Shown: piece by piece, positions 45,324 to 56,070 of the stretch | Layout: every line of letters begins with the position of its first letter | How positions within the stretch are numbered: the stretch's first letter is position 1 | Assembly: GCA_021413845.1 (NCBI GenBank) | Contig: JAIOPP010000020.1 | Location: 1-64,000 of the forward strand | DNA from: Planctomycetia bacterium | GTDB lineage: Bacteria > Planctomycetota > Planctomycetia > Pirellulales > PNKZ01 | Reading direction: 5' to 3' | Length of the DNA: 64,000 nucleotides | Translations under genes and position numbers: made by a program | The notes under the pieces: generated by a model | Databases searched by the model: none | The model's input: only the letters and a program-made list of their open reading frames with translations | Told to the model about the DNA's origin: nothing

Positions 45324-45350
45324 GTGACAACCACATGCCGATGCTACAAT
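45324..45350 (+). promoter_or_regulatory. putative promoter of the toxin-antitoxin pair
   Basis: GTGACA (45324-45329, five of six matches to the -35 consensus) and TACAAT (45345-45350, five of six) are separated by 15 bases, slightly short. A start site about seven bases after the -10 would fall at or next to the antitoxin ATG at 45357, implying a leaderless transcript. Confidence 0.45.
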
Positions 45351-45356
45351 GATGGC

Positions 45357-45611
45357 ATGACTCCTAAGATCACGAGCGAACAACGCGAAGCCCTCAAACA
45401 AGACGGTGGCTACCCGGTGCCGGTCGAAGACGACCAGACGCATCAGTTGTATTTTCTGATCGACAAAGCGACGCTTGATACGCTGCGGCAAGATGCCGAT
45501 CGCGAGGCGATCCGGCAAGGGATTTCGGACATGGAAGCGGGCCGGGTTCTCACACTTGAGGAACTCGACGCCCGCATTCAGTCGAAGCTTCGTCGGTCGC
45601 AAACGGCATGA
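45357..45611 (+). CDS. antitoxin of a ParE/RelE-type toxin-antitoxin pair
   Basis: Small protein of 84 residues immediately upstream of a RelE/ParE-like toxin and overlapping it by ATGA. Its C-terminal half (REAIRQGISDMEAGRVLTLE followed by ELDARIQSKL) has the helical, charged layout of a toxin-wrapping tail. The N-terminal part, with VPVEDDQTHQLYFLIDK, is not an obvious ribbon-helix-helix domain. I start at ATG 45357; the upstream in-frame extension would run through the likely promoter. It should neutralise the toxin and may repress its own promoter. Confidence 0.75.
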   Translation: MTPKITSEQREALKQDGGYPVPVEDDQTHQLYFLIDKATLDTLRQDADREAIRQGISDMEAGRVLTLEELDARIQSKLRRSQTA

Positions 45612-45931
45612 CGTACACCGTCGTCGTCACCGAGCAGGCCGCTCGCGAGATGGAGGATGCCGCGACGTGGTGGGCACGTGAGCGCTCCGTCGAACAGGCT
45701 GAACGCTGGTACGCCGGCATACGTTCTGCCGTTTCCATGCTGACGGAGATGCCTGAGCGTTGTCCCTTGGCGGCAGAGCATGTCGACTTCCGTTATGCAT
45801 TGCGAGAATTGTATTACGGCCTCGGATCGCGGCCGACGCATCGTGCGGTCTTCACGATCGTGAAACAGACAGTGATCGTGCTCGCGGTACGCCACTTTGC
45901 ACAAGACACCCTGCGCGCCGGCGACATCTAA
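45608..45931 (+). CDS. RelE/ParE superfamily toxin
   Basis: Protein of 107 residues with the compact RelE/ParE fold signature: VVVTEQAAREMEDAATWW at the N-terminus, RYALRELYYGLGSRPTHRAV in the middle, and the terminal strand TVIVLAVRHFAQD. ParE-type toxins poison gyrase and RelE-type toxins cut mRNA; sequence alone does not settle which. It is translationally coupled to the antitoxin gene. Confidence 0.85.
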   Translation: MTYTVVVTEQAAREMEDAATWWARERSVEQAERWYAGIRSAVSMLTEMPERCPLAAEHVDFRYALRELYYGLGSRPTHRAVFTIVKQTVIVLAVRHFAQDTLRAGDI

Positions 45932-49033: not shown

Positions 49034-50059
49034 TTACTGCGCGGCGCTCTTCGAACCATGCGGCGAGCCGCTAATGAGTTGCCCTTCCGGCAGCGGTCGG
49101 CCCGCGACGGTGAAGCCTCGCCGATAAAGATGCTCGCGTACGAGGCGATAATTCTCGAAGCTGTCGGGATACGCCCAGAGCGTGATCGTGTAGCGGCGCG
49201 GATCGAGATCGGCGAGCGCGTTCTGGAAATCGGAATTCTTCCGCATCGCGTCGGCCAGGGTCTCTCCCATGTCGTTGCCGACGGGCAGAAGCGCGAACTC
49301 GGTCGTCCGCACGATCGAGCCGCCGGGCGTCATGCTGTTGCCGTTTACTTGCCCGGCGACATCGACGCGCTCCAGCGTATAGCGCATCCGGAACCCACCG
49401 ATCGGCCCGACCGATTCGGTGATCTCCGTCTGATCGCGTAACTTGCTGAGTTTGCTTTGCATTTCCCGCTTGAGCTCATCGATCAATTGATCGAGCGGAA
49501 CCAACGTGATGCGTCCCCCTTTGATTTGGAAGTGCGCTTCGCGTCCGTACACGGTGCGACTGATCGGCGTCGGATACGTGCGGATCTTGATGACGTCTTT
49601 CGTCGGTGCGTAGACCAGCGCGTTGATTTCCGCTTCCAGTTGCGCCAGCCGAGATTGATCGATCAACACCGCTTGTTGCACTTCGAAAGTTTCTCGCGTT
49701 TCCGAGGCGAGCTTCGCTTTCTCTTCATCGAGAGCGGTTTCTTTCGACTTCACGGCAAAGGCCAAAGCGGCCCGCTCATCGTAGCGCTGCGATGCCAAGG
49801 CGTTGAGTTGCTTGGCGTTCTCGACGAGCTCGAGCGAATCTCGTTCTAGCTGCGCGGCTTGCAGGGTAAGAGCTTCGGCTTGGGCAGTTGCTTGGGTGTC
49901 GTCGACGACCGGGGCAGGGGCTTCGACGGCATTCTTCACCCGCAAGCCGACGACCATCACCAAGATAATGAGAATGCCGACCATGTTGGCGATGACGTCG
50001 AGAAACGAATCGCTGCCGAAGGATTCGGTCGCATCGACGGGAGGTGGTCTTTTCGACAT
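49034..50059 (-). CDS. ExbD/TolR-like protein, Asp-containing
   Basis: Protein of 341 residues with one N-terminal membrane helix at about residues 19-40. Its sequence SFLDVIANMVGILIILVMVV mirrors the ExbD/TolR helix, with Asp21 at the place of the proton-carrying aspartate. After that comes a coiled coil of about 110 residues and a C-terminal alpha/beta domain (residues ~150-335) with EFALLPVGNDMGETLADAMR and YTITLWAYPDSFENYRLVRE. The last part could bind envelope components. AGAGGG lies nine bases before the ATG. It is the third gene of the ExbB-like operon. Confidence 0.72.
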   Translation of the reverse strand: MSKRPPPVDATESFGSDSFLDVIANMVGILIILVMVVGLRVKNAVEAPAPVVDDTQATAQAEALTLQAAQLERDSLELVENAKQLNALASQRYDERAALAFAVKSKETALDEEKAKLASETRETFEVQQAVLIDQSRLAQLEAEINALVYAPTKDVIKIRTYPTPISRTVYGREAHFQIKGGRITLVPLDQLIDELKREMQSKLSKLRDQTEITESVGPIGGFRMRYTLERVDVAGQVNGNSMTPGGSIVRTTEFALLPVGNDMGETLADAMRKNSDFQNALADLDPRRYTITLWAYPDSFENYRLVREHLYRRGFTVAGRPLPEGQLISGSPHGSKSAAQ

Positions 50060-50119
50060 CGCTGTTACCCTCTTGATACCTGCTACGGATCGAAGCCGAG
50101 TTCTCGACTAAACGTCCGA

Positions 50120-52402
50120 CTACCGACGTCCCGTGGAAACCGGTTGCGCCACGGAGATTTGCTTCCCCGAGACTTCCAATCCGCTGCCGTCGAGCAATTG
50201 CTTTAATTCGTTGAAGCGCGCCGCACCGTCGGGGGCGACGTGAACGACCAGCTTCGGCTTCCAATACATCCCGCGTCCGGCGATGCCCCAGGTCGTCACT
50301 TGATCCCAAACCGTGGAGACGAGCGTATCGATGGAGTCCTCAGTCGGACCTTCCATCAAGATTTGCTTGTCGGGAATCCCCTTGTCGGAGAAGAGCGTCA
50401 GTTGATTACCCGAGCAATAAATCTGGATCGGGCGCGTGAGTGGAGTCGAGCGGCGTGCTTCTTCCGGCAGACCCCAATCTTTGCCTCGTTTGCGAGCCAT
50501 GCTTTCCACATACTCGCCGGGCCCGGTCTGCTGTTGCGGCGGCGACATGTTCACCGATACGTTCTGAGGCGCTGAAGGATCTCCCATCGCACCGCTTCCG
50601 CTACCGCCTGCTTGCCCCGGTGTTCCAGGGCTTCCTCCCCCGGCGTTCGACGAAGCTCCATCGCCTGGTTGGCCCGCGCTGGTTCCGGCAACACCGCTCG
50701 ACGCATTCGATCCCGAGCCCGATGCTCCGGCAGCGCCGCTTGGTCCGGAGTCGCCACCGCCGGCGACCGATCCATCGGGAGAGCCGCCGGCTCCGTTGCC
50801 CGATTGCGAGTCGCCGGTCGAGCGCGTACTGGAGTAACCGTTCGACGGAGCGGCGGCAGCCGAAGTATTCCCTGTTGCGCCAAACTGATTCGAGGGCGCT
50901 CCGGAGGTCATGCCGTCGCCGGTTCCTTGAGGGCCGCCGACGTATTGCGATGCTCCCGCGCTGCCGGGCTGACCATTACCTGGCTGACTGTTACCACCTG
51001 GAGAACCGAGCCCGGGGCCGCCGAGATTCGGGCCGCCTGAATTCGTCGCACCGGTGGGTAATACTTCCGTCGCAGGAACTCCGTTTCCGATTCCGCCGTT
51101 TCCATAACGATTGTCCGATGCGCCGCCGGTGAGGGTCGGCGATGCCGCAACGAGACCGCCCGCCGAGTTTCCGGGACCCGTGCCGTCGAGACCTTGGCCG
51201 ATTCCCGGAGGAACGCTAGGAGTACCGGAACTGCTGTTTCCTCCGACGCCGGTGCCACGGCCATCGTTTCCGTTAATCGAAGCGAAGGGTGCGCCACCGG
51301 GTTGATTGGCGGAGTATCCGCCGCTTAAACCGTTGCCGCCACCGCCACCTGCCCGCGGACCACGATCGGCCGAATAGCGTCCGCCGCCTCGAGTCCCGTA
51401 GCGTTCGCCGCCGTCGCCACCATCGACTTGAACGACACCGCCGCCGGAAGGGGAGACCCGAAACGTGGCCTTAGGATTTTTGCCACGTAGGCTCGGCGCC
51501 GCGCGAGCGAGCATAACCTGACGTAGCCGAGCTTCTTCGACCGCTTTGGTCAGCATTTGCGACAAGAGCGGATCGGATGGGGGAAATTCAAGCGGCCAAT
51601 TCTCATCGATCAATTCGTAGCCGAACTCCCCTTCCCAACTGCTCATGCCGGCGCGGGCCGCGTAGTACGATCCGATGCCGCTCGGCCGAACCAGCAGCAA
51701 AGGATAAGGCTGCTCTCCTTCGCGATAGCTTTCGCCGCGCGTGAGATACTCGCTTACCAAGCGGACCGCGACGGCGAGAGGATTCGAGGGGCCGAGCGAA
51801 CCGCCGAAATCGGCTTCCGAGAATTTGATTCCTTCCGGCTGCAACACGATGGCATCGCCGCGACACTCGATATAAATGGGACGGCGGCGGGTACCGTTTT
51901 CACCGTCGTAGGGAACCACGGCAAACGCTTGCGGCTTCCGGCCGACCGCTTTCTCGGCGGCCAGCTTCCGTTCGGCTTCGGCGATCTTGCGGCGCAGTTC
52001 TGCCAGATCGGCCGCGACGCTACCACGGCCGGCGGCATCGCCCGAGGCCTGCGTTTTCAACAGGTCTTCCGCGGCCTCGAGATCGGCGAGTTGCTTCTTC
52101 AAGCGCGAAGCGTGCTCTTCCAGATGGCTGAGTTGCGCGCGGTCGCCGGCGACGTCGGCGAGCGTTTTCTCGCGCGACTTCGTCAATTGATCGATCTTCC
52201 ACTGCAGGTCTTCCTCGCGGCGACGAATCGCTTCGAGGTCGACCTTCGGCTTCGCCGCTTCGGCCATGGCCGCTTCGGCTTGAGCCTTCGACTGACTCGC
52301 AATAAGCATCAGCAAGAGGACGAGCGCGCCCATCGTGCACAGCAATACGGCGAGAAAGGGGAAGAGCGAGACTCCGGTGTTGGCGCTCGGAGGGCGTCTC
52401 AT
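50120..52402 (-). CDS. second ExbD-like protein with Gly/Ser-rich linker, no helix Asp
   Basis: Protein of 760 residues. One membrane helix (about 11-37, LFPFLAVLLCTMGALVLLLM) aligns with the ExbD-type helix of the next gene, but has Ala18 where that protein has Asp. A coiled coil (about 45-160) and an alpha/beta domain (to ~300; PIYIECRGDAIVLQPEG) follow. A Gly/Ser/Asn/Thr-rich low-complexity region fills about 315-620. A second globular domain, similar in style to the first (PIQIYCSGNQLTLFSDKG and VVHVAPDGAARFNELKQLL), ends the protein. It overlaps the ExbB-like stop by ATGA. Confidence 0.72.
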   Translation of the reverse strand: MRRPPSANTGVSLFPFLAVLLCTMGALVLLLMLIASQSKAQAEAAMAEAAKPKVDLEAIRRREEDLQWKIDQLTKSREKTLADVAGDRAQLSHLEEHASRLKKQLADLEAAEDLLKTQASGDAAGRGSVAADLAELRRKIAEAERKLAAEKAVGRKPQAFAVVPYDGENGTRRRPIYIECRGDAIVLQPEGIKFSEADFGGSLGPSNPLAVAVRLVSEYLTRGESYREGEQPYPLLLVRPSGIGSYYAARAGMSSWEGEFGYELIDENWPLEFPPSDPLLSQMLTKAVEEARLRQVMLARAAPSLRGKNPKATFRVSPSGGGVVQVDGGDGGERYGTRGGGRYSADRGPRAGGGGGNGLSGGYSANQPGGAPFASINGNDGRGTGVGGNSSSGTPSVPPGIGQGLDGTGPGNSAGGLVAASPTLTGGASDNRYGNGGIGNGVPATEVLPTGATNSGGPNLGGPGLGSPGGNSQPGNGQPGSAGASQYVGGPQGTGDGMTSGAPSNQFGATGNTSAAAAPSNGYSSTRSTGDSQSGNGAGGSPDGSVAGGGDSGPSGAAGASGSGSNASSGVAGTSAGQPGDGASSNAGGGSPGTPGQAGGSGSGAMGDPSAPQNVSVNMSPPQQQTGPGEYVESMARKRGKDWGLPEEARRSTPLTRPIQIYCSGNQLTLFSDKGIPDKQILMEGPTEDSIDTLVSTVWDQVTTWGIAGRGMYWKPKLVVHVAPDGAARFNELKQLLDGSGLEVSGKQISVAQPVSTGRR

Positions 52403-53712
52403 GCAGCCTTACTCACGCTCGAGGAGTTTACGGGCAGAGAATACGAACCGGCAGGCGTGCTGATCCGTTCGAGCCGGGCATTCAAAAGATTGACCGCGCC
52501 CGTCAGGTTCATGAGCGTCTCTTGCAAGTGCTGCGACGCAGAGAGGGTCGTCAGGTTGCGCGAGAGAGCATCTTCCAATTGACGAACCTGTCCGGCACCG
52601 TTCACGATTTGCAACAGCGAATCGGCTTGGCGACGAAGCTCCAATTGTTGCGAGGCGTTGCTCGCAGCGCACGCCTCGAGGGCATGCTGCACCTGAAGCC
52701 AATGCTTTCGGTTCTGCTCGGCAGAGCCGTCTTCGATCGCCGTCATGTGCTTGCGATGCGTTTCCATGCTCCGGGCAAGCGCCTTGCCGAAGGCTTCTTC
52801 CAATTGCTCGCGCCCGGCGGAAGTGACCGATTCCCAACGCTCGTTAGATACGCTGATCGTGTGGTTCCAAATTTCGGCCTGACGTTCGACCGTGCGCTCG
52901 ACGGAACTGATGACCGCCTCGGCCATGCGGCGAACGCCGTTGAGCTGCGGATCTTGCTCGCTGCCGGCCGGTGGGAAGCGGGGCGTGAGCATATCGTTGG
53001 CGCGGTTATCGACGTCGGACAATAAGCGAGCTTCTTGTTTGTCGATAAAGAACTGCCCGAACATCAGCACCATCGAAAGCGCCAGCGCGAGGGCCGTCGT
53101 ATCGAATGCGACACCGAGGCCCGACGTGACGATGGGAAGCGAGTTTTCCAGCAGCTTCGGGTCGAGGCCGGCGATCGCGATCGTGATCCCGATGACCGTG
53201 CCGAGGAAGCCGAGAATCGGAATGGCCCAGATGATGATGCGAACCATCGCATACGACGAATGCGCGCGGCCGGCATCGACGTCGGAATAAAATCGAAGAT
53301 CGTCTTGCAGATCGTCGGCCGAGCTTTTGCGACAGATCGCATCGAGCGTTTCGCGTAAGCGTCGAGGGAGATACGATTCGCGCGTCGAGGCGGGAAGGGC
53401 CTCGAGTTGCGTCAGCAAAGTGCGTGCTTCGACTTCGCAATCGCCGACCGGAACCGTTTCCTCGAACTTGACCTTGCCGATGTTCGCACGCTGCTCTGCG
53501 ATATCGCCGGCTCGCAAGATGAGCTGCGCGAGCCCGATGAAGAACATGATCGTTTCGCAGTATTCGACCCAGTGACCGGCGAAGTAGCGACTGAAGAAAA
53601 CATCGCTTAGCACGCCCGTATGGATGAGCGTGAAAAACCCGAGCGAGGCGAGCGAGCCCCACAGGATCGACGAACGAACGACGGCGAGGGCAAAACGATT
53701 GATTCGGCTCAC
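52399..53712 (-). CDS. MotA/TolQ/ExbB-type proton channel protein with long tail
   Basis: Inner-membrane channel protein of 437 residues. Four hydrophobic helices lie near residues 10-31, 49-68, 155-182 and 193-222. The hallmark third helix is AIPILGFLGTVIGITIAIAG, with Thr172 at the pore position, and the fourth is SGLGVAFDTTALALALSMVL, with Thr205/206. About 200 residues of helical, partly coiled C-terminal tail follow. I chose GTG at 53712 because AGGAGG lies seven bases upstream; longer starts at TTG 53760 or ATG 53748 place this motif inside the gene. It should use the proton gradient to drive the two ExbD-like partners. Confidence 0.88.
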   Translation of the reverse strand: MSRINRFALAVVRSSILWGSLASLGFFTLIHTGVLSDVFFSRYFAGHWVEYCETIMFFIGLAQLILRAGDIAEQRANIGKVKFEETVPVGDCEVEARTLLTQLEALPASTRESYLPRRLRETLDAICRKSSADDLQDDLRFYSDVDAGRAHSSYAMVRIIIWAIPILGFLGTVIGITIAIAGLDPKLLENSLPIVTSGLGVAFDTTALALALSMVLMFGQFFIDKQEARLLSDVDNRANDMLTPRFPPAGSEQDPQLNGVRRMAEAVISSVERTVERQAEIWNHTISVSNERWESVTSAGREQLEEAFGKALARSMETHRKHMTAIEDGSAEQNRKHWLQVQHALEACAASNASQQLELRRQADSLLQIVNGAGQVRQLEDALSRNLTTLSASQHLQETLMNLTGAVNLLNARLERISTPAGSYSLPVNSSSVSKAA

Positions 53713-54241: not shown

Positions 54242-54565
54242 CTAGCGGCAATGGTGATGGTGGTGGTGACCGTAGCCGCCGCCGCGGTAGTAGCTACCGT
54301 AGGGAACGCCGCCGCCGCCGAATCCGTACGGGCTACCGTAGAAACTGCTGCTACGGTAATAGCTGCCGTAGCCACCACCATAGCCGCCGCCTCCATAACC
54401 ACCACCGTAACCACCGTAGCCGCCATACGGCGAACCGTAGTAGCCGGGGCTTCCGCTATACAAACTGATTCCGAATCCTTGAGCGTTCGCGGATTGCGGA
54501 GCCGCAACTAAACAAGCTCCGATCAACACCGCAGGCACTACCAACATTTTCAATAAACGGGACAT
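54242..54565 (-). CDS. exported Gly/Tyr-rich protein with native hexahistidine end
   Basis: Protein of 107 residues. A signal peptide (MLVVPAVLIGACLVAAPQ, cleaved near ANAQ) is followed by a mature part made almost only of Gly, Tyr, Ser and Pro (GGYGGYGGGYGGGGYGGG type) and ending in GHHHHHHCR. Such sequences are structural or adhesive; the histidines could bind metal. The ATG at 54565 has AGGAGA nearby, and the longer frame upstream has no signal peptide. The opposite strand is open too, only because of the repetitive composition. Confidence 0.78.
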   Translation of the reverse strand: MSRLLKMLVVPAVLIGACLVAAPQSANAQGFGISLYSGSPGYYGSPYGGYGGYGGGYGGGGYGGGYGSYYRSSSFYGSPYGFGGGGVPYGSYYRGGGYGHHHHHHCR

Positions 54566-54868
54566 TGCATCTCTCCTAAGCTTTTCGCGACGACTTCGGC
54601 GCCGCGGCCGGCCAGCGTGCGAGTCCAACTCCCTAACACACGCGTGCTGTTTTTTCTTGTTCGGCCGTATCTTACGGACCTGAAAAGGGCTTAGCGTTGG
54701 CCCGAAAGAGCAAATGCAGAGTGCGTGCCGAAAGAGAGCGGCACGGGCCGGCATGAAGCCACAACCGATTTTGCAGATTGAGCTTACGATCGATTAGAGA
54801 TTATCGATCGATCAAACGCGGCGATGAGATCCGCATGAATCACAGTCGCGAGATCGCGTCAGTTGTCG
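54566..54868. other. intergenic region with inverted repeats
   Basis: About 300 bases between two minus-strand genes. It holds CGATCGAT/ATCGATCG with an 8-base spacer (54787-54810) and CGTGCCG/CGGCACG (54724-54745). These could be operators or transcript ends; no gene is seen. Confidence 0.45.
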
Positions 54869-55276
54869 TCACTTCGAAGGCGCATACGTGGCGAAGCAAT
54901 TCGGCGTTTCCCACAGAATCGACTCCACGATCGGGAAGCCTTGGCTCTTCGTGAAGTCGAAAATGAGCTTCGCGATGTTTTCGGCCGTCGGGTTACTGTC
55001 GAGCAGATAGATCGGCTCACCGATCGCGCGCAGCGTTTCGACCGCGGGATCGTCGCGATGCAGCAACATCCGATGATCGAGATTCACATCGATCCAGTTG
55101 CTCACGACCTTCTTGATGTCGGAGAAATCGAGCACCATCCCCCGGTTGTCGAGCGATTCGGCTTCGATCGCGATGATGGCTCGGCCGTTGTGGCCGTGCA
55201 GATACTTGCACTTGCCGTCGTAGTTCATCAACCGGTGGCCGTAGCAGAAATCGATTTGGCGAGTAACGCGAAACAT
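54869..55276 (-). CDS. queD: 6-carboxy-tetrahydropterin synthase (QueD/PTPS family)
   Basis: Enzyme of 135 residues that makes 6-carboxy-5,6,7,8-tetrahydropterin from dihydroneopterin triphosphate, the first committed step to queuosine and archaeosine bases. The zinc histidines are in CYGHRL and LHGHNG, and the catalytic cysteine is in GKCKYLHGHNG. The C-terminal Glu is in VESILWETPNCFA. The ATG at 55276 matches the usual family N-terminus; the open frame upstream is shadow. It lies 116 bases after queC in the same direction. Confidence 0.93.
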   Translation of the reverse strand: MFRVTRQIDFCYGHRLMNYDGKCKYLHGHNGRAIIAIEAESLDNRGMVLDFSDIKKVVSNWIDVNLDHRMLLHRDDPAVETLRAIGEPIYLLDSNPTAENIAKLIFDFTKSQGFPIVESILWETPNCFATYAPSK

Positions 55277-55392
55277 ACGACCGGAACTCCGAGAGTGGGC
55301 GAGACGATGAACCCGAATTGTAGCAAAACCACGCGACGATCGCGGCGTTGCGAGAATGCATGCCGACCGAATCGAAAGCGGCCGTGCTTCCG

Positions 55393-56070
55393 CTAACGAG
55401 CGGTCGCGGCGTAAGTCGTCGGATCGTCGATCCCGACCGAAGCGAAAGCTTGGCGTCGTTCGGCACACTTATTACAGCCGCCGCAATGGAATTCACCGAC
55501 CGGCGCGATGCAAGAGAAGGTCAGATCCAACGGAAACGACCGGCCGAGTTGCATGACTTCGCTTTTATGCAGCGGAGCGAAAGGGCGCGAAAGCAGCAAA
55601 TTTCCTGCGGTTGCGACGTTTAATACCGCTTGAAATCCCTCGAAGAATTCCGGCGTCGCATCGCTGAACGGATTCGACCCCAGCGGTGCCATCGCGAGCT
55701 CGTCGACACCGTTGAGGCTGCACCAGAGCGCGGCCTTGATGAGCAGCAAGGCGTTGCGACCAGGTAGATACACGGCGTCGTCCGAGGTCGAGCCGTCGGG
55801 CACCCCACGCCCCGTCACGCTCCAATGGTCGTGATAGACGTCCGTTAGAGGCATCTCCAGCACGACGAGCGGCCGCAGCTTTTCGCCGGCGAAATGTGCC
55901 AGCAGCCGCGTGAGAGCGGCAAGCTCGTGCCGTTCCCAAAAGAGCCCGGCCCGGATGTAGAACGGCTGTACCTCACGCCCCTTCTCCAACAGGTCGCCGA
56001 GCAAGATAGCGCTATCAAGACCGCCGCTTACGAGCAGCCCAACAACCGGCGATCGAGAGCGAGAAATCAT
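55393..56070 (-). CDS. queC: 7-cyano-7-deazaguanine synthase
   Basis: ATP-dependent enzyme of 225 residues that turns 7-carboxy-7-deazaguanine into preQ0 for queuosine tRNA modification. The PP-loop is LLVSGGLDSAILL near residue 12. The zinc site is CIAPVGEFHCGGCNKCAERR in the C-terminal third. The middle has VYLPGRNALLLIKAALW. It forms a queC-queD pair; queE is not in the window. Confidence 0.93.
   Translation of the reverse strand: MISRSRSPVVGLLVSGGLDSAILLGDLLEKGREVQPFYIRAGLFWERHELAALTRLLAHFAGEKLRPLVVLEMPLTDVYHDHWSVTGRGVPDGSTSDDAVYLPGRNALLLIKAALWCSLNGVDELAMAPLGSNPFSDATPEFFEGFQAVLNVATAGNLLLSRPFAPLHKSEVMQLGRSFPLDLTFSCIAPVGEFHCGGCNKCAERRQAFASVGIDDPTTYAATAR

Follow-up and report, generated by a model that had tools for sequence, protein, structure and literature searches.

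The minus strand of the window (the whole 64-kb stretch of DNA that was analysed) carries an operon, a set of three open reading frames that specify a channel protein, an "A-partner" and a "D-partner". They lie where the earlier note had placed them, between positions 49034 and 53712:

52399..53712, minus strand: channel gene, MotA/ExbB/TolQ-family subunit (437 aa; type I, with Gly175 and Asp204; PF01618)
50120..52402, minus strand: A-partner gene (760 aa; AlphaFold model mb285b0492438)
49034..50059, minus strand: D-partner gene (341 aa; AlphaFold model ma7356b695a05; 36 relatives aligned)

The channel gene starts with GTG, is preceded by AGGAGG (a good ribosome site), and overlaps the A-partner gene in the sequence ATGA. 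These three genes alone are widely kept from locus to locus (the channel cluster has members at 48 loci, the A-partner at 46 and the D-partner at 36; the next-best gene reaches 12), so that their association in an operon goes far beyond chance. Each genome that was examined closely has one full-length A-partner, one D-partner and one working channel.

The neighbouring genes of the window specify a sigma factor, a ParE-like toxin, a SAM hydroxide adenosyltransferase, a class III aminotransferase, a GDSL hydrolase, QueC and QueD, and none of them hints at a role for the operon. No TonB, Tol or flagellar gene was found by Pfam among the neighbours, just as the earlier note had it; ordinary ExbB/ExbD sets, and MotA/MotB-like genes adjoining flagellar genes, are located elsewhere in the same genome. 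The idea of a co-conserved outer-membrane partner came to nothing at the level of gene neighbourhood: no such gene is conserved beside the operon across loci. (Observations on the surroundings: the queD and queC homologues, at 54869-56070, share the operon's strand, where they precede it, and are found near it at about 11 loci; the gene of the ParE-like toxin (PF05016), at 45324-45931, is preceded by a small gene for a possible antitoxin; and 54242-54754 encodes a small protein, rich in Gly and Tyr, that is hydrophobic near its N-terminus and closes with six consecutive histidines; it has no family match.)

The channel protein matches the MotA_ExbB model PF01618 with E 6.9e-11 (42.4 bits; the cut-off is 22.9). 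It has four hydrophobic segments, predicted to span the membrane, and a long cytoplasmic C-terminal tail; a search of solved structures with it returned weak TolQ matches only. Alignment to E. coli ExbB over the pore helices (hhalign) locates two segments that figure prominently in what follows:

53188..53199, minus strand: TM3 pore segment T172-V-I-G175 (T172 corresponds to E. coli ExbB Thr148; type II channels have His in place of G175)
53098..53103, minus strand: TM4 pore segment D204-T205 (type II channels have Asn in place of D204; the next residue, T206, corresponds to ExbB Thr181)

Position 175 is thus three residues from T172, and position 204 is two residues from T206.

The N-terminal helix of the D-partner reads DSFLDVIANMVGILIILV, with Asp21 at the proton-carrier place; that of the A-partner reads LFPFLAVLLCTMGALVLLL, with Ala18 there. 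The two residues are as the earlier note had written them, and profiles of the two helices align with Ala18 placed on Asp21 (hhalign probability 88, P 2.8e-6). The features of the two partners are:

49997..49999, minus strand: Asp21 codon of the D-partner, presumed proton carrier (Asp in 133/133 distinct D-partners)
52349..52351, minus strand: Ala18 codon (GCC) of the A-partner, proton-carrier position (Ala in 109/126 distinct A-partners)
51611..51880, minus strand: A-partner domain 1, residues 175-264 (alpha/beta, homologous to domain 2)
50159..50446, minus strand: A-partner domain 2, residues 653-748 (alpha/beta, possibly an ExbD-periplasmic-like fold)

Asp is also present in every D-partner that was added after the 133-sequence set was assembled, and the conservation that the earlier note wished to see checked is, on the D side, complete; on the A side it is not, the 17 other A-partners of the 126 having Ser, Thr or Asp at position 18, and some relatives having Asp or Glu. 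(A second acid of the D-partner, Asp17, encoded at 50009-50011 of the window, precedes Asp21 by one helical turn; it is invariant in a 37-row alignment, and a small set of further relatives has Asn in its place.)

In its AlphaFold model (pLDDT 86) the D-partner consists of a transmembrane helix (residues 17-46), a coiled coil (54-149) and a C-terminal alpha/beta domain; that of the A-partner has a transmembrane helix (16-49), a coiled coil (56-154) and two alpha/beta domains that are repeats of each other (hhalign P 2.8e-6), separated by approximately 300 Gly-rich, disordered residues. Neither partner matches the ExbD/TolR model PF02472 at E 1, nor by hhalign, and solved structures searched with both partner profiles gave coiled-coil matches only. 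In the model of A-partner domain 2, residues 656-748 superimpose on the ExbD periplasmic domain of E. coli (8p9r_A) with Z 6.0 and rmsd 2.8 over 71/74 residues (VIA-align), a middling Z, slightly exceeded by folds such as ribosomal S11 and Pelota; the match is suggestive of kinship with the ExbD periplasmic fold, not proof of it. (The top Foldseek match of the A-partner, ribosomal protein S11, with E 2.2e-3, is read as a common alpha/beta arrangement and was set aside.) The outer domains had been called unlike ExbD; this holds for sequence, in which no link is found, and is probably at least partly wrong for the fold of domain 2. The corresponding search with the D-partner brought up nothing clear (best Z 5.7, with Pelota and actin-like folds); ExbD is absent from its list, which decides nothing for or against.

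How widespread is this operon? The channel was matched in 58/58 genomes of the order in a first search, and the D-partner was found in 15/16 sampled genomes of family f21, a second group within the same class. Outside the class, a phylum-wide sample gave distant paralogues and weak matches only. The relatives that bear names are Pirellulales and other planctomycetes. (One contig, L125, is titled Candidatus Nealsonbacteria and has the operon in its typical planctomycete form; that assembly is probably mislabelled or contaminated.) No paper on this motor family was found in the openly licensed literature, and a paper on the essential genes of Planctopirus limnophila does not, at least in its main text, name ExbB, TolQ or MotA (PMC10632474).

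The channels are of two types. Type I has Gly175 and usually Asp204, and type II has His175/Asn204; in going from I to II, TM3 changes Gly175 to His, Ile176 to Phe and Thr177 to Gly, and TM4 changes Asp204 to Asn and Ala207 to Thr. In the channel tree, type II makes up a single, fully supported clade. The A-partner's proton-site residue tracks this division: it is neutral in 108/108 type I systems (106 Ala, 1 Ser, 1 Thr) and acid in 19/20 type II systems (18 Asp, 1 Glu; the remaining one has Ser), the raw counts leaning towards type I, since the name-bearing collection favoured the closest relatives, and the tree-based tests being the better measure. Genomes with partners away from the channel gene were searched whole, and it was there that further acid A-partners surfaced: the A-partner has Asp in five of them (G007, G024, G034, G049, G055), Glu in one (G050) and Ser in one (G042), and all seven have the divergent channel. 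(The Glu and Ser cases, partners L286 and L284 respectively, are the odd ones among type II systems; their channels are L081 and L086.)

A type II channel gene lies apart from the partner genes in most type II lineages, a statement that relies on channel genes situated well inside contigs because the genomes are partly drafts. Simple co-inheritance of linked genes consequently fails to explain the match between channel and partner. The trees make the same point in another way. The A-partner tree, built without the proton-site column, and the D-partner tree both follow host families, and acid A-partners do not group together: the Ala form of G018 clusters with the Asp forms of its own family (G034, G055), and the Ala form of G026 with the Glu form of its own family (G050). 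Partner trees that follow families, together with a single clade of type II channels, imply that channels were replaced and that the A-partner was changed in place. On the A-partner tree, channel type and A-partner residue each change 8 times. On the best tree, counting on the A-partner's own tree, the switch to type II and acid occurred about 8 times and the reverse never. Independent pairs number 8 on the best tree and 4 on well-supported branches, with 0 discordant (on the supported branches alone there are too few for a sign test to reach 0.05); comparison of the dependent with the independent model of Pagel yields a likelihood ratio of 51.9-53.5 under two root assumptions (p ~1e-10).

The relationship also withstood a forecast. 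Type II channels were sought in 397 genomes of the order, and the prediction that they would be accompanied by acid A-partners was recorded before the partners of the newly found channels were inspected. It held in 9/9 new type II genomes, all with Asp: G347, G357, G592 and six of family f7. (These six belong to a previously unused genus; one other member of the new set is in family f15.) A tenth genome, the weak hit G418, has a channel that is type I and an A-partner with Ala. The proton-site residue of the A-partner is thus, as judged from these comparisons, under selection from the channel. (A side observation on genus g291 of family f7 (G431, G439, G443, G447, G491, G499; L330-L335, L340-L345): a decayed type I channel gene, its pore motifs gone and its tail kept, separates the partner genes from the new type II gene and looks like a channel taken out of use.)

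Several matters complicate the pairing rule. The notion that Asp204 simply substitutes for the missing partner Asp is weakened by seven type I systems in which Asp204 is replaced by Ala, Gly or Asn. The residue is therefore no strict requirement, and compensation of charge fails as a simple rule; Asp204 may nevertheless take part in type I function. In addition, there are paralogous three-gene cassettes (L090-L093, L217-L220), some with channels that have a zinc-ribbon-like start, in which the A-partner residue is Ser seven times and Asp once (L091) and the D-partner residue is always Asp. L091, a distant zinc-ribbon paralogue with Asp in both partners and a type I-like channel, counts against the rule, as does the Ser of the type II genome G042.

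What might such an assembly be? The reading that appears rather likely is a proton-driven motor of the ExbB/ExbD-TolQ/TolR-MotA/MotB kind whose two axle helices are two different proteins. One A-helix and one D-helix would lie side by side in the pore as a heterodimer. The Asp that binds the proton would come from the D-partner; the A-partner of type I systems, with Ala at the proton site, would be the passive half of the axle, and protons would pass on the single partner Asp only. The A-partner would also bear the larger periplasmic "arm", composed of a domain present twice, in at least one copy perhaps ExbD-like, and a flexible Gly-rich joint, and motion would be handed to the periplasm or the outer membrane. 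The channel would set the A-partner residue: neutral for type I, acid for type II with its His175 and Asn204. That the A-partner residue tracks channel type in about 8 switches argues for an A-helix that faces the pore and would otherwise be hard to explain. From such sequence patterns we infer a heterodimer with both helices inside the channel, a single working carboxylate in the standard form, a 5:1:1 stoichiometry and asymmetric motion.

The Asp/Ala pair that had drawn attention to this locus turns out to be the conserved standard state of the whole class. Relatives with acid in both partners, which the earlier note had named as refuting its idea, do exist, and they carry the type II channel; because their channel is a different one, the idea is refined rather than refuted. 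A broader formulation commands somewhat less assurance, although the balance still tips in its favour: class-wide 5:1:1 rotary motors that normally have one axle Asp, with about 8 switches to two carriers upon replacement of the ring, the number of carriers being tuned to the ring. The pattern suggests that such motors can be made to run on one proton carrier or on two. The best guess for their cellular task is an envelope function common to the class.

Must the A-helix be in the pore at all? The D-partner alone might provide a homodimeric, two-Asp axle, with the A-partner an accessory membrane protein outside the ring; 5:2 motors of known structure do have a dimeric axle made of a single protein (PMC9389320), and the much larger A-partner could be a separate arm. 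It is an unlikely arrangement: the A-helix is homologous to the D-helix and is changed exactly at the proton site, and if the helix lay outside the pore, it would be hard to see why that residue should follow channel type in about 8 lineages. Alternation of one channel between two homodimeric motors, made with the D-partner or with the A-partner, has been considered for AglRQ/AglRS of Myxococcus, where AglQ and AglS are both predicted to have Asp and where hetero- versus homodimer is unsettled (PMC9389320). Transferred to the planctomycetes, it would leave an A-homodimer in a type I channel with zero partner carboxylates, yet Ala is kept across the class, and this proposal is very doubtful. 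The co-variation of channel and A-partner is badly explained by either scheme.

We give the lowest credence to the proposition that the Ala/Asp split is a lineage marker devoid of mechanical meaning, with acid A-partners merely co-descending with type II channels. It is true that type II channels are a single clade and that some of the sampled genomes are close relatives; against this, acid A-partners are scattered on the partner trees, channel and partner genes are often unlinked, and the association survives both the tree-based test and the advance forecast.

If the heterodimeric motor is the correct reading, its interest lies in a ready-made experiment: a motor family in which one helix is naturally without Asp, and sister systems with two Asp, bear on whether two carriers are needed, and the same natural contrast bears on the fit of ring to axle, on direction and on step size. 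Since each channel replacement goes with one altered residue in the partner, it can also be predicted which mutants ought to function.

Known systems resemble this one in part. Like MotA/MotB stators, it has four predicted transmembrane segments in the channel subunit and a single-helix partner with Asp; unlike them, it has no OmpA-like peptidoglycan domain and no flagellar genes nearby. (Heterodimers are not mentioned in a recent survey that covers MotAB together with its relatives outside the flagellum (PMC12505986).) Zorya ZorA/ZorB likewise has a channel protein whose cytoplasmic tail is long and coiled, and the ZorA2 model is matched weakly (E 7.5e-9), but Pfam finds no ZorB-like OmpA peptidoglycan domain in the partners and no adjoining ZorC/D/E among the neighbours, and the operon is present in every sampled genome of the order, unlike a mobile defence system. 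Identity with Zorya was rejected: the channel is a weak match only and the other Zorya genes are absent. With ExbB/ExbD and TolQ/TolR the operon shares the PF01618 channel with its pore threonines (T172 and T206, corresponding to ExbB T148 and T181), a D-partner with a single N-terminal helix and an Asp near its start in a P/S-x-L-D-V setting, and perhaps, in the A-partner, a domain of ExbD-like fold. It differs from them in having two unlike partners, both missed by the ExbD Pfam model, one of which has Ala18 in its N-terminal helix (16-49) and no Asp near the start; in its long coiled coils, Gly-rich stretch and doubled domains; and in the absence of TonB, TolA, TolB and Pal from the planctomycete locus.

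The nearest system in plan is AglRQS, the gliding motor of Myxococcus xanthus, in which a MotA/TolQ homologue and two unlike TolR-like partners are encoded in one cluster (PMC3169522). AglQ and AglS are both predicted to have Asp, where the planctomycete A-partner has Ala, and whether they form a heterodimer is not known (PMC9389320); neither an Ala partner nor a switch of channel type was found described for AglRQS. The literature that was found describes motors of this kind with a two-Asp axle of equal helices. What those papers describe is two equal axle helices, each with its Asp; what is new here against them is a partner with Ala and a switch that is linked to the channel.
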